Below, piece after piece: positions 1-14,789 of a DNA stretch of 64,000 nt. Made by a program: the position numbers and the translations under genes. Origin of the DNA: Eubacteriaceae bacterium ES3 (GTDB lineage: Bacteria; Bacillota; Clostridia; Eubacteriales; Eubacteriaceae); the NCBI GenBank assembly GCA_030586155.1, contig CP130741.1:124001-188000 (forward strand), read 5' to 3'. Positions within the stretch are counted from its first letter, which is position 1. Every line of letters begins with the position of its first letter. The notes under the pieces were generated by a model. That model was not told the DNA's origin and ran no database searches. It was given only the letters and a program-made list of their open reading frames with translations.

Positions 1-651
1 TCTAACATTGAACCTAACGAAAATGGTCAATGTAAGAAATCTAACATTGAATCATGTAAGGAATCTAACGCAGATTTTGAAAAAGTGCGTAAGGAATCTA
101 ACAAGATTTCTACACCAGAGATTAGAGATAAGAGATTAGAGATTAGAGATAAGAATTTAGAGATCAGAGATAAGAGACTAGAGACTAGAGACTTAGATTA
201 TTCCTCTGACCCAGCTTTTCAGATTTTAGAACAAGCAATCAGTAAAAAGAAAGCTGAAATAGAAAAATATAAAAAAACCGATATTGAAGAGCTTGAACCA
301 ATTGGCGATACGCTTCTAAATAATTACTCTGAAATAGAAGACTATTTAATTTTAACTGATGAGGATATTCAATACTTTGTTGATTGTTGGAATAACATTG
401 ATATTTCAGGAAAGATAAAAAAGCTCACGGATAAGCAGATTGAAAAGCTTAAGGATAATGTTAATCAATTTGGAATTGGACAGGAGCCTAAAGAAAAGAT
501 TGATCATTTATTTGACAGCATTACAGATAGTCTTTATCTACTTGGTGAAGCTGAACATGAATTTAAACTTATGATTAATTGGGTCTTAAAACCGGAAAAC
601 TGGGAAAAGATTATTAGTGGTGATTATGAAAGCTGGGGCGGTGTCATTTAG
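1..651 (+). CDS. Phage-type replication protein, C-terminal part (5' end outside window)
   Basis: The frame is open from base 1, so the start codon lies left of the window; the GTG at 85 is internal. The visible part begins with a low-complexity stretch repeating KESN/SNIE, then a seven-residue repeat of the type EIRDKRL (about residues 39-64), then an acidic helical region and a conserved-looking C-terminus (FKLMINWVLKPENWEKI near the end). A repetitive linker followed by a helical W-x-L-K-P-x-N-W motif is typical of DnaD/replisome-organiser-like proteins of Firmicute phages and satellites, which load helicase at the element's origin. The family call rests on this C-terminal pattern only. 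It lies just upstream of the capsid module in the same orientation. Confidence 0.55.
   Translation, partial: SNIEPNENGQCKKSNIESCKESNADFEKVRKESNKISTPEIRDKRLEIRDKNLEIRDKRLETRDLDYSSDPAFQILEQAISKKKAEIEKYKKTDIEELEPIGDTLLNNYSEIEDYLILTDEDIQYFVDCWNNIDISGKIKKLTDKQIEKLKDNVNQFGIGQEPKEKIDHLFDSITDSLYLLGEAEHEFKLMINWVLKPENWEKIISGDYESWGGVI
117..193 (+). repeat. Eleven tandem 7-bp repeats inside the replication gene
   Basis: Eleven consecutive heptamers of consensus AGAGATT/AGAGATA/AGAGACT run without a break, with one weaker copy (AGAATTT at 152-158). Seven is not a multiple of three, so the protein repeats every 21 bp as a seven-residue unit. Many phage and satellite origins are iterons inside or beside the initiator gene, so this is a candidate origin. 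It could also be just a low-complexity protein linker. Confidence 0.8.
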
Positions 652-934: not shown

Positions 935-2137
935 GTGAGAGCTATTAACATTTTTAATCGATTCAAGAAAAAAGAACCTGACCCCCAGCAGATGGAACGG
1001 GCAGAATTAATCAGCGGAAACAACAGTTTTTCGCCATGGTCAGGTGATGCCTATTCACTGGACATATACCGGGGCGGGGTTGATTCCATCGCCCGGAATT
1101 GTGGCAAGCTGAAAGGCTCGCATATTATCAGCTATGCGAATCAGCAAAAGACCCAGGGTGACGAAAGGCTTAACCGGATTTTACAGGTGGCACCTAACCC
1201 CTATATGACGGCCTATGATTTTCTGTATAAGATGGTCACGCACTATTATTTATATAATAACGCTTTTGCCTATTTGCAGAAGGATAAAAAAGGCCAGGTA
1301 ATTGGCATTTATCCCATGGGCGCAAATCAGGTGGAGTTTTTAACCGATCCAACGGAAACAATGTACTGCAAGTTTTTATTGACGGGTGGTAAAGAAGTGA
1401 TCCTTCCTTATGCGGATATCATCCACTTGCGCCGGAATTTCAACGAAAATGATTTGCTGGGTGATCAGAACACCGCCATCATGGACACGCTGGAACTGGC
1501 ACACGCACAGAGTGAAGGAATGGTAACCAGCATTCAGACATCGGCTAATATTCGGGGGCTTATAAAGCATACCACAATCTTAAATGATGAAAGTCTCGAA
1601 GAAAGCCGTAAAAAATTCATGGAAAACTTTCTACAGATGAACAACAATGGCGGTGTGGCGGTAATAGATCAAAAAATGGAGTACACGCCAATCAATCAAA
1701 CCCCAGCCAATATTGATACTGGCCAGATAGAAGCCATCAAAACAAAAATTTACAACTATTTGGGCATATCGGAAAGCATTGTGAACAGCTCATACAATGA
1801 AGATCAGTTTTCAGCCTTTTATGAGTCAACGCTTGAACCGATCGCCTTGCAATTAAGCCTTGAATTTACCCGGAAAATCTTTAATGACCGGGAACAGGAA
1901 TATGGCAATAAAATATGCTTTGAATCCGGCAGGCTGATATTTTCCAGTAATGCCACCAAAGTAAGAATGATTAGGACACTGGTGCCTCTGGGATTACTGT
2001 CTATTAACCAGGCATTGGAAATTTTAAATCTTCCAAGTATTCCAGATGGTGACAAACGGATTCAGACTTTAAATGTGATATCACAAGATAAAGCGGATCA
2101 GTATCAATTGAATGATATGGAGGATGAGGAAATATGA
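935..2137 (+). CDS. Phage portal protein (HK97-type)
   Basis: The portal forms the dodecameric ring at one capsid vertex through which DNA enters and to which head completion proteins attach. The protein of about 400 residues shows the usual opening (NIFNRFKKKEP), a conserved block SLDIYRGGVDSIARN near residue 45, and the long helical middle of the HK97 portal family. The reading frame extends upstream to 854, but that part does not resemble a portal. An AAAGGAG site at 927-933 favours a start at GTG 935 or the rare ATT at 944. The stop overlaps the protease start by 4 bp (ATGA), indicating translational coupling. Confidence 0.9.
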   Translation: MRAINIFNRFKKKEPDPQQMERAELISGNNSFSPWSGDAYSLDIYRGGVDSIARNCGKLKGSHIISYANQQKTQGDERLNRILQVAPNPYMTAYDFLYKMVTHYYLYNNAFAYLQKDKKGQVIGIYPMGANQVEFLTDPTETMYCKFLLTGGKEVILPYADIIHLRRNFNENDLLGDQNTAIMDTLELAHAQSEGMVTSIQTSANIRGLIKHTTILNDESLEESRKKFMENFLQMNNNGGVAVIDQKMEYTPINQTPANIDTGQIEAIKTKIYNYLGISESIVNSSYNEDQFSAFYESTLEPIALQLSLEFTRKIFNDREQEYGNKICFESGRLIFSSNATKVRMIRTLVPLGLLSINQALEILNLPSIPDGDKRIQTLNVISQDKADQYQLNDMEDEEI

Positions 2138-2712
2138 AAGAAAAAAGAATAGCAGAAATAAGAGCCACCGACCCGGCAGGTGAGGAACAAGGCCTTATTA
2201 TAAAAGGTATGCCTGTGGTGTTTGAACAGGAAACCGAAATAAAAGACCCGGCAGGATCTTACAAAGAAATTATTAGAAGGGGTGCGCTTGATGGTTGCGA
2301 TATGACCGACACCCGGTTGCTTTACAATCACGATATAAAGCGTATTCCATTGGCTAGAACACCTAAAACATTGCAGTTTAATATTACCCCGGCAGGGTTA
2401 GAAATGATTGCAGCGTTACCGGATACGGCAGAAGCAAGGTCAGTTCATACGGCAGTTAAAAATGACCTTTTGACAGGAATGTCATTTGCATTTACCGTTC
2501 CTGTAGGTGGGGACAAGTACGACCGGAAAACTAACACAAGGGAAATACTGAAAATATCAAAAATATATGAGTGTTCTGTGGTGCCTTATCCGGCTTACCC
2601 TCAAACGAGTGTAGAAGCCAGGGCGGTTATAGATGCACCAAAAGATGAAGCAACCAAAAAAGCCATTAAATTGGCAGCAAATAAAATTCTATTTACGAAG
2701 GAGAAAAAATAA
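2134..2712 (+). CDS. HK97-family prohead protease
   Basis: This is the serine protease that cleaves the capsid N-terminal delta domain during head maturation. At 192 residues it is normal length for the family. It shows the N-terminal IKGMPVVFEQETEI beta region, an FNITPAGL strand, the LLYNHD histidine motif and the LLTGMSFAF segment that carries the catalytic serine, followed by ECSVVPYPAYPQT. It sits between portal and capsid genes, as in nearly all HK97-like modules, with a 4-bp overlap with the portal gene. Confidence 0.92.
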   Translation: MKEKRIAEIRATDPAGEEQGLIIKGMPVVFEQETEIKDPAGSYKEIIRRGALDGCDMTDTRLLYNHDIKRIPLARTPKTLQFNITPAGLEMIAALPDTAEARSVHTAVKNDLLTGMSFAFTVPVGGDKYDRKTNTREILKISKIYECSVVPYPAYPQTSVEARAVIDAPKDEATKKAIKLAANKILFTKEKK

Positions 2713-2713
2713 A

Positions 2714-3949
2714 ATGAAATTTGAAACAGTGGCAGAAGCCTTTAATTATTACAGAAGTGCAAACTTAGCGGAAATTGAAACCAGAGCAGCCCAGATTAAG
2801 GGAACCATAGACACCGATCCAGAAGCGGACGTAATGAGCCTTAATATTGAAATTCAGGGTTTATCCCAGGCAAAAGAAAACCTTAAAGACAATCAGAAAA
2901 AGCCGGAACCGGAACCACGAGGACAGTTTAACCCGATTACCGGGGGAACCTTTGAGAAAAGAGCCAGTGACGCAGCCTTAACCGGGGATGTGCTGGAAAG
3001 TCCAGAATATCGGTCAGCGTTCTTTAAAACCCTGCTAGGCCAAGCATTAACACCATTTGAAACAGCAGCCTTTAAACGGGCGCAGGAAGTTGAAAAACGG
3101 GCAGATGCTTTTAACACTGTTACCAGTGCAGCAGCAGTTTTACCGACTCAAACACTGAATGAAGTAATCAGCAAAGCCCGGACAATGGGCGGTTTATTGC
3201 CACAGTGCCGATCCTTCAATATGCCGAGTAAAATTAGTATTCCTGTGGGAACACCGACCGGGAAAGCAGCATGGCACACAGAAGGGACAGCAGTTGAATC
3301 AGAAGATAGCAGCGTGGTAAATGTTGATTTTGACGGGTACGAGATTATAAAAGTATTCTCAATCAGTGCAGCAGCCAAAAAAATGAGTATTTCAGCCTTT
3401 GAATCATATATGACCACGGAACTATCAGCCAGTGTTATGGAATGTATTGCGGATAGTGTTGTTAATGGGACAGGAACCACCCAGGGAACCGGGATTGAAT
3501 CCATTAGCTGGGTTGCTGGCACCAATGCCGTTGAATACACAAAATCTGGCATTCCAAGTTACACCGATTTTGTAACACTAATGGGCAAACTAAAACGGGG
3601 TTACAGTAACGGCGCAATATTTGCCATGAATAACTCGACCCTTTACACCCACGTTTACAACATTGTGGATGGAAACGACAGACCTATTTTTATTACAGAT
3701 CCCAAAAATGAGGGAATCGGCTTTATTCTGGGTAAGCCTGTGGTTATTGATGATAACATTGCCGATGGTGATATTTACCTGGGTAACTTTAAGTATTTTG
3801 GTTATAACATTCCCGAAGGAATTGCCATTGAAGTATCCAGAGAATCCAGTTTTAAATCTGGCCTGATTGATTACCGGGCTTTAGCAGTTGCCGACTGCAA
3901 GCCGATTGTCACAGAAGCCTTTGTTAAGCTGTATGAAGCAGCCGTATAA
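2714..3949 (+). CDS. HK97-fold major capsid protein
   Basis: The main shell protein has 411 residues from ATG 2714, chosen because AAGGAG lies 10 bases upstream; the longer open frame from 2633 only overlaps the protease. The first 100 or so residues are a charged helical delta/scaffold domain (AEIETRAAQIKGTI, then a Lys/Glu/Pro-rich linker) expected to be removed by the neighbouring protease. The remainder shows the phage_capsid pattern, with LPTQTLNEVISKART, the ISAAAKKMSISAFES segment and a C-terminal FKSGLIDYRALAVADC block. It is followed after 5 bp by the connector gene. Confidence 0.93.
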   Translation: MKFETVAEAFNYYRSANLAEIETRAAQIKGTIDTDPEADVMSLNIEIQGLSQAKENLKDNQKKPEPEPRGQFNPITGGTFEKRASDAALTGDVLESPEYRSAFFKTLLGQALTPFETAAFKRAQEVEKRADAFNTVTSAAAVLPTQTLNEVISKARTMGGLLPQCRSFNMPSKISIPVGTPTGKAAWHTEGTAVESEDSSVVNVDFDGYEIIKVFSISAAAKKMSISAFESYMTTELSASVMECIADSVVNGTGTTQGTGIESISWVAGTNAVEYTKSGIPSYTDFVTLMGKLKRGYSNGAIFAMNNSTLYTHVYNIVDGNDRPIFITDPKNEGIGFILGKPVVIDDNIADGDIYLGNFKYFGYNIPEGIAIEVSRESSFKSGLIDYRALAVADCKPIVTEAFVKLYEAAV

Positions 3950-3954
3950 ATGAT

Positions 3955-4230
3955 ATGACAATTACAGAAGCAAGAGACTATTTGAGGATAGACGGAACAG
4001 ACAATGACGGGGTAATTTCCCCGTTGCTGTCTGCTATCCCGGATTATATTGAAACCACTACAGGAATGAGCGCAGACCAGCAGGCAAGCGAACCTTTAGC
4101 GGATACAGTCAGTAAATTTCTTTTAGCCTTGTGGTATAACGCAGAAGGCACCGACAGCGAAAAACTGGAAAGGACAATTAATAGTTTGCTGAAAGTATTA
4201 ACGGCCATGGCGGTTGATCCAGCAGAATAG
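3955..4230 (+). CDS. Head-tail connector (gp6-like)
   Basis: This 91-residue protein has the short helical pattern of the phage head-tail connector family (HK97 gp6-like): TITEARDYLRIDGTDND at the start, then PLLSAIPDYIETTTGM and a helical tail (VSKFLLALWYNAEG). Such proteins form the first ring below the portal. It follows the capsid gene by 5 bp and belongs to the same transcription unit. Confidence 0.8.
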   Translation: MTITEARDYLRIDGTDNDGVISPLLSAIPDYIETTTGMSADQQASEPLADTVSKFLLALWYNAEGTDSEKLERTINSLLKVLTAMAVDPAE

Positions 4231-4242
4231 GAGTTTATAACA

Positions 4243-4536
4243 ATGGCACAGGGCTATGCAAAACATTTTTATCAATCGGTGGTTTGGAAAAAGACATCAA
4301 AGGCCTATGCAGCCAGCCAGCACTTTATTTGTGAGCGGTGCGGAAAGCCAGGGCGCATAGTCCACCATAAACATTACATTACACCGAAAAACATTAATGA
4401 CCCTGAAATTACTTTGAGCTGGGACAATCTGGAATATTTGTGTCAGGATTGCCACACCTATGAGCATTTAGCCGGATCGGAATGTATGAAGGGTTTGTGC
4501 TTTAACAGTGAGGGGGAACTTATCAAAAATGAATAG
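4243..4536 (+). CDS. HNH endonuclease
   Basis: This 97-residue HNH nuclease has CERCGK, then IVHHKHYITP with the HH motif, then NLEYLCQDCHTYEH, forming a two-CxxC zinc-ribbon HNH fold. Packaging-associated HNH proteins act with the large terminase in DNA maturation, mainly in cos-type phages. In most phages HNH comes first, before terS-terL-portal; here it follows the connector. The stop overlaps the next start by 8 bp. Confidence 0.9.
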   Translation: MAQGYAKHFYQSVVWKKTSKAYAASQHFICERCGKPGRIVHHKHYITPKNINDPEITLSWDNLEYLCQDCHTYEHLAGSECMKGLCFNSEGELIKNE

Positions 4537-5086
4537 CGTTGAACCGATAAGAGAAAAAGACGATATTATCAATTTTGTTGAGTACCTGAAAGAGCGCAAC
4601 GAACGTGATTATATTTTGGCCATGACCGGGTTTTATTCTGGCTATCGCATATCTGATTTGTTAAGCTTGAGAGTAAGAGATTTTAGGGATAAAGATTATT
4701 TTTATTTCCGGGAACAGAAAACAAATAAGCAGACGAAAATAATAATCAATCCAGAATTAAAAAGAGCAGCGAATGAGTACATTTATTTCAATAGTCTGAA
4801 AGATGATGATTATATGTTTAAAAGTCAGAAGGGGTATAACAAGCCGATAACCAGGCAACGGGCTTATGTGATATTGTCGACAGCAGCTAAGGCGATTGGT
4901 TTGCATGGTAGCTTTGGCACTCACAGTTTAAGAAAGACAATGGGCTATCACTATTACAAACAGACTAACGATATTGTCACATTGAAGATGATCTTCAATC
5001 ATTCATCAATTGATGTGACGTTATTGTACATCGGTGTGACACAGGACTTAATGAATAAACAATTAAAAGGTTTTAAGTTATTTTGA
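4529..5086 (+). CDS. Small tyrosine recombinase, catalytic domain only
   Basis: This 185-residue protein contains just the catalytic half of a tyrosine recombinase. It shows GYRISDLLSLRV (Arg I), a beta-strand lysine region (REQKTNKQTK), THSLRKTMGYHYY (His-x-x-Arg box), FNHSSIDVTLLYIG (second His and tyrosine nucleophile). All catalytic residues appear present, but the SAM-like core-binding domain and the arm-binding domain are missing. ATG 4529 is preferred over GTG 4508 because AGGGGGAA lies 11 bases upstream. Similar small recombinases occur within the packaging gene block of some Clostridial phages. Its place in the late module argues against it being the element's main integrase. Confidence 0.8.
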   Translation: MNSVEPIREKDDIINFVEYLKERNERDYILAMTGFYSGYRISDLLSLRVRDFRDKDYFYFREQKTNKQTKIIINPELKRAANEYIYFNSLKDDDYMFKSQKGYNKPITRQRAYVILSTAAKAIGLHGSFGTHSLRKTMGYHYYKQTNDIVTLKMIFNHSSIDVTLLYIGVTQDLMNKQLKGFKLF

Positions 5087-5088
5087 TA

Positions 5089-5274
5089 ATGTTACACAAT
5101 GAAGCAAGGAAATATAGTGGGCTTAAAATAGAAGTGCTGAAAAGGGCATTAAAAAGCGGTTCTTTTTGCTGTAAATTTATAAAACTTTTAAATGGGAAGG
5201 CCAAAAAGCAGGTGGAAATTAGAATAATGATACACAATGAAAAAAGAAAACATTTAATTTGTGCAAATGGTTGA
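5089..5274 (+). CDS. Short hypothetical protein (uncertain)
   Basis: A 61-residue basic frame follows directly after the recombinase. The stretch NEARKYSGLKIEVLKRALKS resembles the helix-turn-helix of NUMOD1-like or excisionase-like modules, but there is no good ribosome binding site. It may be a decayed remnant. The sequence TACACAATGAA occurs twice here (5093-5103 and 5231-5241). Treat as possible rather than established. Confidence 0.3.
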   Translation: MLHNEARKYSGLKIEVLKRALKSGSFCCKFIKLLNGKAKKQVEIRIMIHNEKRKHLICANG

Positions 5275-5525
5275 AAATAGTTTATTAATGGGCTTTGGCG
5301 GGCTTGTGAAAAACATTACACAATTACAGATAAGTAACATTATTTTGAACGAGAATTTACGCATAAAAAAACAGTTGATGATTTTGAAAAACGTGATTAT
5401 ATCCCCCCTTGTTTGAAGTTGGAAAAAGCCAATTAGGAACCGTAGGATGGCCTTTAGAAAACCTCTAAAGTGAATTTTAAAATTTAGGGGGGGGGTAAAA
5501 TGCTAAATGGGGGAAATGAATAAAA
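5275..5525 (+). other. Gene-free stretch before terL with a nine-G run
   Basis: No gene is supported here. The sequence carries a run of nine G at 5487-5495 and a second five-G run that may serve as the ribosome binding site for the TTG start at 5526. A small terminase subunit gene would normally sit in this position, but I find none. Confidence 0.5.
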
Positions 5526-7205
5526 TTGAAAAAGAAAAATGAAGAAAAAGAAATTGAATATGAAAATTATATTCTAACATACTGGAATCAGATCCAATCT
5601 GGTGAGGTGATCGTGTCCAACCGGGTAGCTAAGCAATATGAAAAAATTGTGAATGCTCTTGAAAATCCCAAAGAGGGATATCATTTTGATGTAGATCGGG
5701 GAAATAGACCAATATATTTTATAGAAAAGTTTTGTAGACATAGTAAGGGTGAATGGGCTGGAAAACCCGTTATGCTGGAATTATTCCAAAAGGCTTTTAT
5801 CATGTCGCTATTTGGATTTATAAATGATGAAACGCGTTATCGGCAATACCGCGAATCACTGTTCATGGTTGCCCGGAAAAACGGGAAATCCACCATGGCC
5901 AGTGGGATAGCCTTGTATATGATGATTTTTGATCTTGAACCGGGCGCAGAGGTTTACAGTGTGGCCAGTAAAAAAGACCAGGCTAAAATTATTTTTGATG
6001 AAACACATAATATGGTGAAGCAATCGCCAGAATTATCAAAACATATAAGAAAACGGAAAACTGACCTATTTGTTGAAGCGAACATGTCAAAGTTTGAGCC
6101 ATTGGGTAAGAATTCAAATAGCCTTGACGGTCTAAACAGTCATTTGTGCATTATTGATGAACTTCACAGCATTAAAGACCGTAATATCTATGAGGTGCTT
6201 AAACAGTCTATGAGTGCCAGACGGGAACCATTAATGCTGATGACAACAACGTCTGGGACAGTCAGAGAAAATATTTTTGATGATATCTATGAATATGCTT
6301 GTGGTGTTTGTGATGGTGGCTTTGAAGATGATACCTTTTTGCCTATTATCTATGAAATGGACGACAAAGAGGAATACAAAGATAAAAATTTATGGACCAA
6401 AGCAAACCCAGGTTTAGGAATCATTAAGAAGATTGATGATCTTGAAAATAAAATTAGCCGGACAGAGAACAGCCCGAACGATTTAAGCGGGGTTTTGTGT
6501 AAGGATTTCAATATCAAGATGAACGCTTATAATGCCTGGTTGCGCTGGGACGATATTGTGAACGAAAAAACTTTTGAACTGGAAAGATTCAGGGGATCGT
6601 ATTTTATTGGCGGTGCGGATCTGGCCAGATGTGGAGATTTAACTTGTGCAACGGCCTTAATGTTGGATCGGGAAACAGAGGAACGGTTTGTGACACAAAT
6701 GTACTGGCTACCAGAAGATTCATTTAATGAACGGGTGGAAACCGACAAAGTACCTTATGACAAGTGGCGTGAACGGGGATTATTGAGACTGTGCAGCGGA
6801 AATACCATTGATTATAAAGATTTAACGGCGTGGTTTCTGGAATTGGTACAGATTCATGGCATTAATCCGGCATGGATTTATTACGATGCTTATTCAGCTA
6901 CATACTGGAAAGATGAAATGATTATGGAAGGTTTTAACATGATCCCATGTAGACAGGGAGCCAGGACATTAAGCTTACCAATGGAAAGGCTGGGGGCAGA
7001 TCTGGCAGCAAAAAAGATTAATTACAATAATCATCCAATTCTTAGATGGTGCCTGTCTAATACGGGTGTTATCGTGGATCGAAATGAAAACATTATTCCC
7101 GCTAAAGCCAGTAGCCCGAAAATGAAAATTGATGGTACAGCGTCTTTACTGGATGCCTATGTGGGTTTGTGTGACCATTACCAAGAATTCATGAACGCAG
7201 TTTAA
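5526..7205 (+). CDS. Terminase large subunit
   Basis: This 559-residue packaging motor cuts and translocates DNA into the prohead. The N-terminal ATPase has a Walker A-like VARKNGKST (about residue 118) and Walker B LCIIDELH (about residue 213), followed by the coupling motif MLMTTTSGT. The C-terminal RNase H-like nuclease has acidic residues in GGADLARCGDLT and WIYYDAYSAT. The start is TTG at 5526, preceded by GGGGGAAATGAATAAAA. Its position downstream of the capsid genes is unusual; phages of this type normally have terS-terL upstream of portal. Confidence 0.93.
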   Translation: MKKKNEEKEIEYENYILTYWNQIQSGEVIVSNRVAKQYEKIVNALENPKEGYHFDVDRGNRPIYFIEKFCRHSKGEWAGKPVMLELFQKAFIMSLFGFINDETRYRQYRESLFMVARKNGKSTMASGIALYMMIFDLEPGAEVYSVASKKDQAKIIFDETHNMVKQSPELSKHIRKRKTDLFVEANMSKFEPLGKNSNSLDGLNSHLCIIDELHSIKDRNIYEVLKQSMSARREPLMLMTTTSGTVRENIFDDIYEYACGVCDGGFEDDTFLPIIYEMDDKEEYKDKNLWTKANPGLGIIKKIDDLENKISRTENSPNDLSGVLCKDFNIKMNAYNAWLRWDDIVNEKTFELERFRGSYFIGGADLARCGDLTCATALMLDRETEERFVTQMYWLPEDSFNERVETDKVPYDKWRERGLLRLCSGNTIDYKDLTAWFLELVQIHGINPAWIYYDAYSATYWKDEMIMEGFNMIPCRQGARTLSLPMERLGADLAAKKINYNNHPILRWCLSNTGVIVDRNENIIPAKASSPKMKIDGTASLLDAYVGLCDHYQEFMNAV

Positions 7206-7313
7206 AAAACAAGCTCTATATCGCTGTTTTAAGCCATTTTTTTAGTTATGATGTGTGCCAATACTATTAAAACGGTTTGACAGCTGGGCGTTTTCTGGGA
7301 AAAGGAAGGCAAA

Positions 7314-7664
7314 ATGAAAAAATACTTGAAAGATAAAAAGATACAGATATTCAAAGAAGATTATACCGAAAATGTTTTAGGTGAACAGGTGCCAACGCTG
7401 GTGGCTCTTCATGCTGGTAGCTTATGGGCATATGTACGGCAATTGTCAGCAAAAGAACTTTATGAAGCTGCTGCAATCCAAAGTGATGAAGAAATGTTAT
7501 TTGTCATTAATTGGCGAAACGATATTGACCCGGTAACGTGTGTTATTAAATACAAAGGCCTGTATTATGACATTAAGCGGGTTGATACTTTCGAAGGGTA
7601 CAAACAGGATATAAAAATCTATGCAGAAGCTGGATCGGTAAACCAAGGAACATGGAATGAGTAA
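7314..7664 (+). CDS. Head closure / head-tail adaptor protein
   Basis: This 116-residue protein matches the head closure family (SPP1 gp16/HK97 gp7-like, Phage_H_T_join). It has an all-beta pattern with LWAYVRQLSAKELYEAAAIQS in the first half and INWRNDIDPVTCVIKYKGLYYDIKRVD in sequence-typical order (shown here in pieces). It seals the filled head and offers the tail docking surface. An AAAAGGAAGG site precedes ATG 7314. It is the last recognisable virion gene; no tail gene follows. Confidence 0.8.
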   Translation: MKKYLKDKKIQIFKEDYTENVLGEQVPTLVALHAGSLWAYVRQLSAKELYEAAAIQSDEEMLFVINWRNDIDPVTCVIKYKGLYYDIKRVDTFEGYKQDIKIYAEAGSVNQGTWNE

Positions 7665-7695
7665 CAGAGGTTAAACGAAAGGATAATAAAATATT

Positions 7696-7947
7696 ATGGA
7701 AAATACGAGTTTAAAAGCATTATGGGATGATGCAGCGGAAAATATTTATCAGGAAACGGAAGAATTTAATAGGCTGTATGGGATATATAGGCGTTCCCTT
7801 GGTAAGCTGGAAACTATAGATGAACAGTTAATGAATGAAATTGGCGAAGCTGTACAGGTGATGACTGAACGAGACAATTACGAATGCTTTGTTCTGGGTT
7901 TTAAGGTGGCCATGGATCTTATTATGATGCGAATAAGCGAATTTTAG
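7696..7947 (+). CDS. Small helical protein, DUF6809-like
   Basis: An 83-residue, all-helical acidic protein. The pattern of an N-terminal helix, a central Q/N-rich helix (LETIDEQLMNEIGEAVQ) and a C-terminal FVLGFKVAMDLIMM helix resembles the DUF6809 family, seen in Clostridial phages and mobile elements; its function is unknown to me. It lies between the head closure gene and the duplicated-domain gene, on the same strand. Confidence 0.55.
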   Translation: MENTSLKALWDDAAENIYQETEEFNRLYGIYRRSLGKLETIDEQLMNEIGEAVQVMTERDNYECFVLGFKVAMDLIMMRISEF

Positions 7948-7969
7948 GCCGGACAGGGACGGGATATAA

Positions 7970-8548
7970 ATGTTAAGTAGAGCAGAAATAGACGAATTGT
8001 TTAATCATGAATCCTTTTTTGTTGGGGATGAAGATGTTGTAACGGTCGAATATGCAGAAAAGATTTTTGGTAAAAATGCTGTGAAATACGCCATAAGACA
8101 GCACAATAGTAGTCAAAAAATATATATGCGGGGGAAAGAATTTTTCCGGTTTATTGAAAGATATGGTTTTTTAATAGCAGCAGATTTTATTAATAGTAAA
8201 AATTTTGAAAAACAAACAACGAGGAAAAATAAAAAGATAATGAGTATGCACAGTGAAAAATTGCTTAATGAAAATCAGATAAAAGAGCTGTTTAAAAAAG
8301 AATCAGTATTTCTTTATATGAAAGATGTAGTTTTGTATGAAAGAGCAGAAACTATTTTTGGTAAAGAAGCTGTTGAATATGTAATAAATGCTTCGAACCC
8401 TGGTGGATTGTGGAGTTATTTTTGGCATGGTGACAATCGGATTGTTTCTTTTACATTAGCTGGCTTAAAGCAGGTTTCAAGTTACTACAGTGTTGAACAT
8501 GTTTTAAAGTTGCGAGAAAAAGAGAAGCAAAAACAATGTGAAGAATAG
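7970..8548 (+). CDS. Unknown protein with two tandem copies of one domain
   Basis: A 192-residue protein that I do not recognise. It consists of two related halves. Residues 1-75 contain LSRAEIDELFNHESFF, VEYAEKIFGKNAVKYAI and a GKEFFRFIERYG tail; residues 92-180 contain LNENQIKELFKKESVF, YERAETIFGKEAVEYVI and a FTLAGLKQVSSYY tail. Each copy looks like two helices, a short beta element and a helix. It is the last gene of the element and ends just before a strong terminator, a place where satellites and prophages often carry accessory (moron) genes such as anti-phage or host-interaction factors. Function is not inferred. Confidence 0.7.
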   Translation: MLSRAEIDELFNHESFFVGDEDVVTVEYAEKIFGKNAVKYAIRQHNSSQKIYMRGKEFFRFIERYGFLIAADFINSKNFEKQTTRKNKKIMSMHSEKLLNENQIKELFKKESVFLYMKDVVLYERAETIFGKEAVEYVINASNPGGLWSYFWHGDNRIVSFTLAGLKQVSSYYSVEHVLKLREKEKQKQCEE

Positions 8549-8586
8549 TACAGGTTAAAGAAGAATAAAAAATAATACTTATGCAT

Positions 8587-8630
8587 AATAATCCTTGAAG
8601 AGCATTTTTACTTCAGGGATTATTTTATTG
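8587..8630 (+). terminator. Strong hairpin terminator of the phage-like operon
   Basis: A 14-bp stem (8587-8600 with 8611-8624) has one G-U pair and a 10-nt loop, and is followed by a T-rich stretch. It closes the rightward phage-like transcription unit 39 bp after the last gene. Confidence 0.85.
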
Positions 8631-8793
8631 AAAATCTGACCCCTTAGACAATATTTTGACCCCTTAATTGACCCCTTAGAAAAAATATTTTAGAAAAATT
8701 AGATGTTATTGAACAGTTTAAAAAGCACTTAAAAACGCATATTAAAGGCTTTGGCAATTCCATAAAAGATTAAGTATGACAACCATACAATAA

Positions 8794-8816
8794 TTCGAAT
8801 CCCTCTCTCTCCGCCA
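8794..8816 (+). other. tRNA-Ser 3'-end fragment, probable right attachment site
   Basis: The 23 bp starting TTCGAATCCC and ending CCGCCA match the T-loop, T-stem 3' side and acceptor 3' strand of a bacterial tRNA-Ser. Nothing upstream folds as the rest of a tRNA (no GGAGAGA acceptor 5' strand, no D or anticodon arm). Elements that integrate at the 3' end of a tRNA gene leave such a fragment at the far junction, with the intact tRNA at the other. The intact gene should lie left of this window. Confidence 0.75.
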
Positions 8817-8830
8817 TGAAAAGAAATTTA

Positions 8831-8856
8831 AAACGGCTTGATATAGCCGTTTTTTT
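8831..8856 (+). terminator. Terminator just after the tRNA-Ser fragment
   Basis: An 8-bp stem (8831-8838 with 8845-8852) with a 6-nt loop runs into a T tract. It lies 14 bp after the tRNA 3' end, which suggests it is the original terminator of the split tRNA-Ser gene. Confidence 0.75.
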
Positions 8857-8940
8857 AATGCCTTAAAGTTGAACGCTGTGTTTTGACCCCTTATCTGACC
8901 ATCTAGAGATCTCGTGTACAGCATAATATTCTGTAAGCTT

Positions 8941-14348: not shown

Positions 14349-14789
14349 ATGAAACGGATTATTATTAATCGCGAAAAATGTGATAGTTGTCTGAACTGTA
14401 CCGTTGCCTGTATCAGCGCCCATCAGGAAGGCAGCAATTTTTATACGGCAGATTTGAGCGGCAGAACGGCTGAGTCGCGGAATAAGATTTATTATAAGGA
14501 AAATCAGGGCTATTTTCCTATCTTTTGTCGGCATTGTGACGAGCCGGAATGTGTTATGTCCTGTATGAGCGGCGCATTATCCAAAGATTCCTCCACTGGA
14601 CTGGTCAATTATGATGCAGAAAAATGTGGTTCCTGCCTGATGTGTGTAATGAATTGTCCTTATGGTGTAATGAAACCGGATAAAGAAAATTCTAAAATGA
14701 TTAAATGCGATTTTTGTCAGGATCAGCCAGAAGGACCCAGTTGTGTTAAATCCTGTCCTAAAGAAGCAATCATAGTACAGGAGGTATGA
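14349..14789 (+). CDS. cooF: CooF-like four-cluster ferredoxin
   Basis: A 146-residue electron-transfer protein with four [4Fe-4S] motifs: CDSCLNCTVAC near the start, CRHCDEPECVMSC, CGSCLMCVMNCPYG and CDFCQDQPEG...CVKSCP. This arrangement is that of CooF/DMSO reductase B-type ferredoxins that shuttle electrons between CooS and a partner. It begins 9 bp after cooS and is followed directly by the flavoprotein gene, so it should wire the two together. Confidence 0.92.
   Translation: MKRIIINREKCDSCLNCTVACISAHQEGSNFYTADLSGRTAESRNKIYYKENQGYFPIFCRHCDEPECVMSCMSGALSKDSSTGLVNYDAEKCGSCLMCVMNCPYGVMKPDKENSKMIKCDFCQDQPEGPSCVKSCPKEAIIVQEV

Follow-up and report, generated by a model that had tools for sequence, protein, structure and literature searches.

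A putative capsid-forming phage satellite without a small terminase gene in a tRNA-Ser site of an acetogen

Whether phage head genes without tail genes mark a satellite that builds its own capsid or the remains of an ordinary prophage is the question raised by the left end of a 64,000-nucleotide stretch (hereafter the window, C1:124001-188000) of the single-contig, 3.39-Mb genome of Eubacteriaceae bacterium ES3. An earlier note, made from the window alone, favoured a tail-less, capsid-forming satellite in an acetogen and offered a prophage deprived of its tail as the alternative. The gene content of the part to the left, the existence of tail-less relatives and the clade in which they fall support the satellite: the element is very probably an integrated phage satellite of the capsid-forming phage-inducible chromosomal island (cf-PICI) type. 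Judging from its genes, it would be a copy devoid of the small terminase subunit (TerS), most likely a packaging-crippled member of a mobile lineage and less likely one for which another element, resident in the cell or infecting it, provides TerS in trans.

The element extends from C1:120334 to about 132911 (ca. 12.46 kb) and is complete from att site to att site; the first 8.9 kb of the window hold about 70% of it, and the left remainder was read from the host genome outside the window. It is inserted in the 3' end of a tRNA-Ser(GGA) gene, of which the intact copy (C1:120266-120356) abuts its left end, and the tRNA 3' fragment recognised in the earlier note at 8794 does repeat this end, the two att copies, 12,460 bases apart, being identical over their first 35 bases and differing once in their first 70. 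The terminator announced before this fragment did not hold up, as the scan of 8549-8794 returned no terminator-like site on the plus strand and the sole one lies on the minus strand (8853-8830), within attR. From left to right, the element encodes an integrase (minus strand; PF00589, 2.2e-24), a CI-like repressor (minus strand; HTH_3, 4.3e-14), a Cro-like protein (HTH_26, 1.9e-06), a 125-aa open reading frame (ORF) assigned to no family by Pfam or PHROGs, an AlpA-like HTH_17 protein (2.7e-11) and a replisome organiser; then come portal, S78 protease, HK97-type major capsid protein (MCP), head-tail adaptor Ad1, HNH endonuclease, small tyrosine recombinase, a 439-base gap, the large terminase TerL, head closure protein Hc1, an 83-aa and a 192-aa ORF, repeats and attR (Table 1). 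In other words, portal, protease, capsid, connector, HNH, recombinase, large terminase and head closure were all recovered by Pfam and PHROGs where the earlier note had placed them, and the leftward extension to the intact tRNA-Ser brought the integrase and the AlpA-type regulator that had been sought there. Regarding the primase, also sought, no such family was matched among the element ORFs and a replisome organiser (Phage_rep_org_N) was found instead. No tail, tape-measure, neck or lysis family was detected in the 18 element ORFs scanned with Pfam and PHROGs; this includes the part between the intact tRNA-Ser and base 1, where tail, tape-measure or lysis genes would have spoken for a rearranged prophage. 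A search of the host genome with the tape-measure family PF10145 was empty, yet PHROGs found the tape measure of the host's tailed prophage, and this null is uninformative on tails.

The element thereby shows integration with att repeats, an AlpA-type regulator together with a repressor, its own replication gene, its own MCP, protease, portal and connectors, its own TerL with HNH, and neither tail nor lysis genes. The cf-PICIs such as EcCIEDL933 have in common with it the integrase, the AlpA-type regulator and a replication gene of their own, as well as their own MCP, protease, portal, connectors, TerL and HNH and the lack of tail genes (PMC11389934, PMC10690885, PMC10803314), with an average size of 14 kb (PMC10803314) against 12.5 kb here. 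Unlike these cf-PICIs, it has a replisome organiser instead of a primase and no TerS of its own; since one defining feature is lacking, it is filed as a TerS-less variant and not as a full member. Classical PICIs and Staphylococcus aureus pathogenicity islands (SaPIs) are likewise small integrated satellites with integrase and repressor, which use helper capsids and sometimes carry their own TerS (PMC10690885); the element, with its own capsid and TerL but no TerS, is the reverse. The heads of the Streptomyces satellites MulchRoom and MiniFlayer are also satellite-encoded, and the MulchRoom tail is attributed to its helper; these satellites differ by a scaffold-type head, no primase, virulent helpers, terminal repeats and an encoded TerS (PMC10690885). 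Among the titles listed in a literature search that covered few subscription papers, none dealt with such elements in Acetobacterium, with satellites that are shell-only or with capsid-forming satellites that bear ParA.

The lack of the small terminase, on which the earlier note is silent, sets this copy apart from the relatives examined. In these, a TerS of about 110-120 aa directly precedes TerL, as at 11920-12279 in L014. By a profile built from the very loci it counts, TerS is present in 73 of the 74 loci with HNH and TerL in one block, the window being the sole one without; in a second, overlapping set drawn with TerL (best 80 of at least 530), it occurs in all 70 loci with at least 450 bases upstream; of the other ten, nine show TerS where the contig ends, and in one the contig begins within TerL. 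The gap at 5087-5525, which may be a cos region, aligns with the spacer between recombinase and TerS of the relative L014 at 55-58% identity (mean 45% and maximum 49.5% in 30 shuffles), including exact runs of 16 and 23 bases, after which terS is absent and TerL begins. A hidden pseudogene or split ORF was rejected, as both tblastn with 83 TerS sequences (best E 0.036) and a six-frame profile search with --max (best E 1.1) stayed at chance level. Relocation of TerS in the host genome was rejected as well, the lineage profile being empty there and matching in three out of three control genomes; a single-sequence search of the host genome, run without positive control, was also empty. Among the Pfam TerS families, only two of which were searched in the host, Terminase_4 matched the prophage gene alone (C1:1572572, also phrog_83) and Terminase_2 nothing. 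Having lost terS, this copy would be expected not to initiate packaging by the normal route, and self-sufficient packaging does not stand.

Could the element nevertheless be an ordinary prophage from which tail and lysis genes were deleted? Its head genes are indeed homologous to those of tailed phages, as in the HK97-like Bacillota siphophages (Terrisporobacter TPDSL_ph2, C. difficile CD2301, Lactobacillus PLE2; portal 34-37%), TerL is about 45% identical in C. difficile phage-plasmid records, and within the host's own family recombinase, HNH and TerL likewise stand together. These siphophages are, however, tailed-phage records of 35-39 kb with TerL before portal. The order rec-HNH-(ORF)-TerL-portal-protease-MCP is found in all four tailed-phage loci of the family (recombinase 31-33% and HNH 44-55% identical to those of the element), and TerL is annotated directly before portal in five of seven tailed records, the gene there being unnamed in the other two. 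In the satellites, TerL stands instead between Ad1 and Hc1, the order Ad1-TerS-TerL-Hc1 being kept in 60 of the 63 loci holding all four, which suggests that in the satellite lineage the HNH-terminase cassette, along with any recombinase, was shifted to a place behind the capsid genes; a simple tail deletion would not yield this order. Besides, both att copies are in place, dozens of loci from across Bacillota have the same layout without a tail, and the portal tree splits 32 dereplicated satellites from six tailed phages and one unassigned record with support of 98/95. Among the GenBank phage matches listed (best 40 of 423 rows in one search), the best at more than 80% coverage reach 36.5% for portal and 31.5% for MCP, shorter MCP stretches going up to 38% among the matches listed. 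With no tail family found and an order unlike that of the tailed relatives, the element does not fall among ordinary or defective tailed prophages; clade and gene order disfavour the alternative of the earlier note, and loss of the tail from a prophage is very improbable. By their place in the tree, the head genes fall in a clade of elements without tails that spans Bacillota and is found mostly on contigs of 12-16 kb.

Several observations nonetheless weigh against the satellite interpretation. TerS, a defining gene of cf-PICIs, is missing from the element, and the best PHROG match of its HNH protein (4581, 2.9e-18) is labelled terminase small subunit; the next PHROGs are HNH endonucleases, and the relatives have the HNH protein plus a separate TerS. 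The first portal tree, in which a miscalled ORF and long-branch rows were kept, gave the same split weakly (65/62), and the rows dropped before the second were L105 (wrong ORF called portal), the host's own prophage and Arian (long branches). Finally, the portal, MCP and TerL of the host's tailed prophage are only 23-29% identical to those of the element, and the connectors have no BLAST match.

Granted a satellite, the lack of TerS can be accounted for in more than one way. A functional satellite using TerS in trans, from a helper phage or another satellite in the cell, is rather unlikely. The remaining ORFs for head and packaging are open and match those of the relatives in length, the ratio of nonsynonymous to synonymous substitution (dN/dS) against L014 is 0.03-0.10 for the three of eight genes where it could be computed (dS itself being 1.5-3.5), and the spacer beside the lost terS is conserved above the shuffled expectation; yet dN/dS mostly reflects the history before terS was lost, and the lineage profile and the two Pfam families revealed no TerS in the host beyond the Terminase_4 gene of the prophage. 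Much less probable still is that an unrelated product of the element, such as the 192-aa or the 125-aa protein, neither of which is assigned to a family, has taken the place of TerS. TerS proteins are diverse, but the 192-aa protein has second-half relatives elsewhere in four of 40 family genomes, the host's included, and a relative of the 125-aa ORF lies in the early region of the second element of the host, an element devoid of terminase.

In a satellite of this kind, CI and Cro would, from their families, set a quiet or an active state; on helper infection or induction, the integrase and its AlpA-type partner would excise the element, the replisome organiser would start its replication, portal, protease and MCP would build a small head, and HNH and TerL would cut and pump the DNA. 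Ad1 and Hc1 would then present a surface for the neck and tail of the helper, which would be needed for neck, tail and lysis. Without TerS, packaging would fail or depend on another element. A possible tail donor is the host's tailed prophage, the virion genes of which (C1:1550749-1573009) comprise head genes, Neck1, tail terminator, major tail, tape measure, holin and endolysin. The TerL ORF of this prophage (C1:1566153-1568780; L125:16153-18780) is 875 aa long, its PHROG pattern suggesting some 350 additional aa in the middle, which might be an intein or an inserted domain, and four ORFs resembling serine recombinases by eye lie beside the prophage (1544978-1550048).

Within the head block, the small tyrosine recombinase is present in 17 of 74 comparable satellite loci, window included, and its relatives at 31-33% stand beside HNH and TerL in the four tailed-phage loci of the family (L018-L021); it appears to be a shared phage cassette gene. 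PADLOC had no match to the recombinase or to any of the three accessory ORFs, and the HNH protein drew weak HNH look-alikes.

Table 1. Features of the element inside the window (window positions, all on the plus strand).
Feature	Position	Strand	Description
Replisome organiser, 3' part	1..651	+	387 aa, start at C1:123488 outside the window; PF09681 Phage_rep_org_N 1.5e-35; phrog_5968 2.2e-46
Portal	935..2137	+	400 aa, start uncertain, ORF opens at 854; PF04860 4.8e-56; phrog_12 2.9e-74
Prohead serine protease S78	2134..2712	+	192 aa; PF04586 4.3e-26
HK97-type MCP	2714..3949	+	411 aa; PF05065 1.9e-36; 78-79% to two congener copies
Head-tail adaptor Ad1	3955..4230	+	91 aa; PF05135 3.7e-05; phrog_40 2.3e-09
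HNH endonuclease, packaging-associated	4243..4536	+	97 aa; PF01844 5.6e-11
Small tyrosine recombinase	4529..5086	+	185 aa, without the N-terminal domain of the integrase; PF00589 7.3e-21; 82% to L014/L015
Gap without assigned gene, candidate cos/TerS-binding region	5087..5525	+	439 bases; relatives' terS missing at right end
Large terminase TerL	5526..7205	+	559 aa, TTG start; PF03354 1.9e-38; PF20441 9.2e-31; phrog_9 2.6e-155
Head closure Hc1 / head completion	7314..7664	+	116 aa; PF05521 (Phage_HCP) 4.8e-12; phrog_25 1.1e-14
83-aa accessory ORF	7696..7947	+	no Pfam family above cut-off; 35% relative in another satellite, L183:8363-8617
192-aa accessory protein, internal duplication	7970..8548	+	halves align, score 102 against a maximum of 51 in 200 shuffles
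TGACCCCTTA repeats, candidate integrase arm sites	8637..8678	+	copies at 8637, 8657, 8669; further copy at 8884
attR, copy of tRNA-Ser(GGA) 3' end	8794..8911	+	86% over 118 bases against C1:120334-120451

The comparison with other genomes that had been proposed did yield tail-less copies, in two other of the 19 genus genomes (own included) and in one other genus. Searching the 40 family genomes with MCP gave close relatives at 78-79% in two congeners and a partial match at 51% in the other genus; of five further matches at 25-29%, four were read and are tailed-phage layouts (with a tape-measure match in two), the fifth lying at G017:C1:3988875. In the congeners, identity to the block amounts to 62-63% for portal, 79% for protease, 78-79% for MCP, 70% for Ad1, 68% for HNH, 82% for the recombinase, 77% for TerL and 55-56% for Hc1, and the block, again tail-less, follows genes for an integrase, a repressor, AlpA and a presumed primase-helicase of 695-713 aa. 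Between the copies in G013 and G010, identity is 97.3% along 10.4 kb and 92.3% along a further 1.3 kb, with two adjacent host genes at 87-89%; the elements being more alike than the host genes, recent transfer between species is suggested. In the third family relative (L016), an unclosed 11.3-kb contig of a metagenome-assembled genome (MAG), Hc1 is joined directly to the integrase gene, as would be seen in an excised circle or a concatemer.

Beyond the family, the portal alignment turned up 20 loci from genome contigs (Clostridia and Lachnospiraceae MAGs, Clostridium, Priestia, Niallia, Bacillus, Cytobacillus, Staphylococcus simulans, Macrococcoides and others), together with the best 80 of 129 loci matched in IMG/VR. 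The complete head block is found in 62 loci, of which 47 are from IMG/VR, 37 of these on contigs of 12-16 kb; some contigs appear more than once in the locus sets (e.g. L029/L071, L033/L110, L039/L041). The absence of tails in the relatives is judged from contig size and by eye: the 66 unassigned ORFs near the 62 head blocks that reach 350 aa were clustered and the representatives read. Among these, L025:94, a 522-aa ORF 5.9 kb upstream and at the edge of its contig, resembles a structural protein of phages and could be part of an adjacent prophage.

Some relatives appear to persist outside the chromosome. ParA occurs in 22 HK97-type loci (Pfam-confirmed in one), 21 of which are without a called large tyrosine integrase but may have a serine integrase. 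Terminal direct repeats of 20-127 bases were found in nine of 71 whole contigs checked, and seven of the nine have ParA (L093, L103, L109, L112, L118, L045 and L083), suggesting closed circles of 12.5-14.1 kb; these ParA-bearing circular relatives are apparently plasmid-form capsid-forming satellites. In PLSDB the MCP had no close relative, its 26 matches being records of 32-135 kb with 27-38% identity, so that the plasmid interpretation rests on metagenome and draft contigs.

The host carries a second satellite beside tRNA-Trp (G000:C1:1993714-2002628; L181:5714-14628), with an integrase 80% identical to that of the element, followed by CI, Cro, a primase-helicase, a scaffold, an MCP and three small ORFs. 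Portal, terminase and tail were not recognised in it, and no other ORF is large enough for portal or terminase, i.e. it is shell-only. This layout is also seen in L183 and, among 12 IMG/VR loci read, in L273, L275, L276, L277 and L279, four of these five having a weak sigma-like match. A different element of about 13.3 kb occupies the same tRNA-Ser site in another genome (L164:3169-16676; G012:C18); its integrase is 81% identical, it has an SPP1-type head (portal, TerL, TerS, connector, scaffold, MCP phrog_422) and a sigma-70-like gene, and no tail family was found among the ten ORFs scanned. The head set recurs in L182 and, minus a called connector, in L278, and the tRNA-Trp satellite of the host is a relative of this type. 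The TGACCCCTTA repeats, putative integrase arm sites, stand beside attL of the element (L004:6424 and 6436; span L004:6424-6445) as well as beside attR, and at both ends of the second element (L181:5695-5716 and 14633-14654); their presence at both ends of both satellites suggests that the two integrases could act on each other's sites.

A layered system can be imagined from this, albeit tentatively and with rather low confidence: two satellite types with unrelated heads would coexist with a tailed prophage in one cell and have an integrase family and arm sites in common. The HK97-type would have given up its TerS and rely on that of another element, the shell-only type would rely on a helper for portal, terminase and tail, and in the wider family ParA circles would persist as plasmids rather than integrate. 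The present analysis places capsid-forming satellites in Acetobacterium and, via their family, in Clostridia and Bacilli at large, and there are signs that they recently passed from one acetogen species to another. With the TerS-less copy it becomes possible to test which components of packaging such satellites can share in trans, and the shell-only and plasmid-like relatives suggest that tasks are divided between satellites and helpers along a finer scale than the published classes imply.

The tRNA-Ser site itself is a hot spot carrying differing elements across the genus genomes. An empty att site with both host flanks was not found in the 10 regions read, the left flank being common to G005, G012 and G014 and the right flank being in none. 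Decayed elements were observed at the same site, one with the integrase in two pieces and, by eye, transposase-like genes between them (L165; G017:C1:145001-165000), and another with an integrase fragment (L167; G003:C1).

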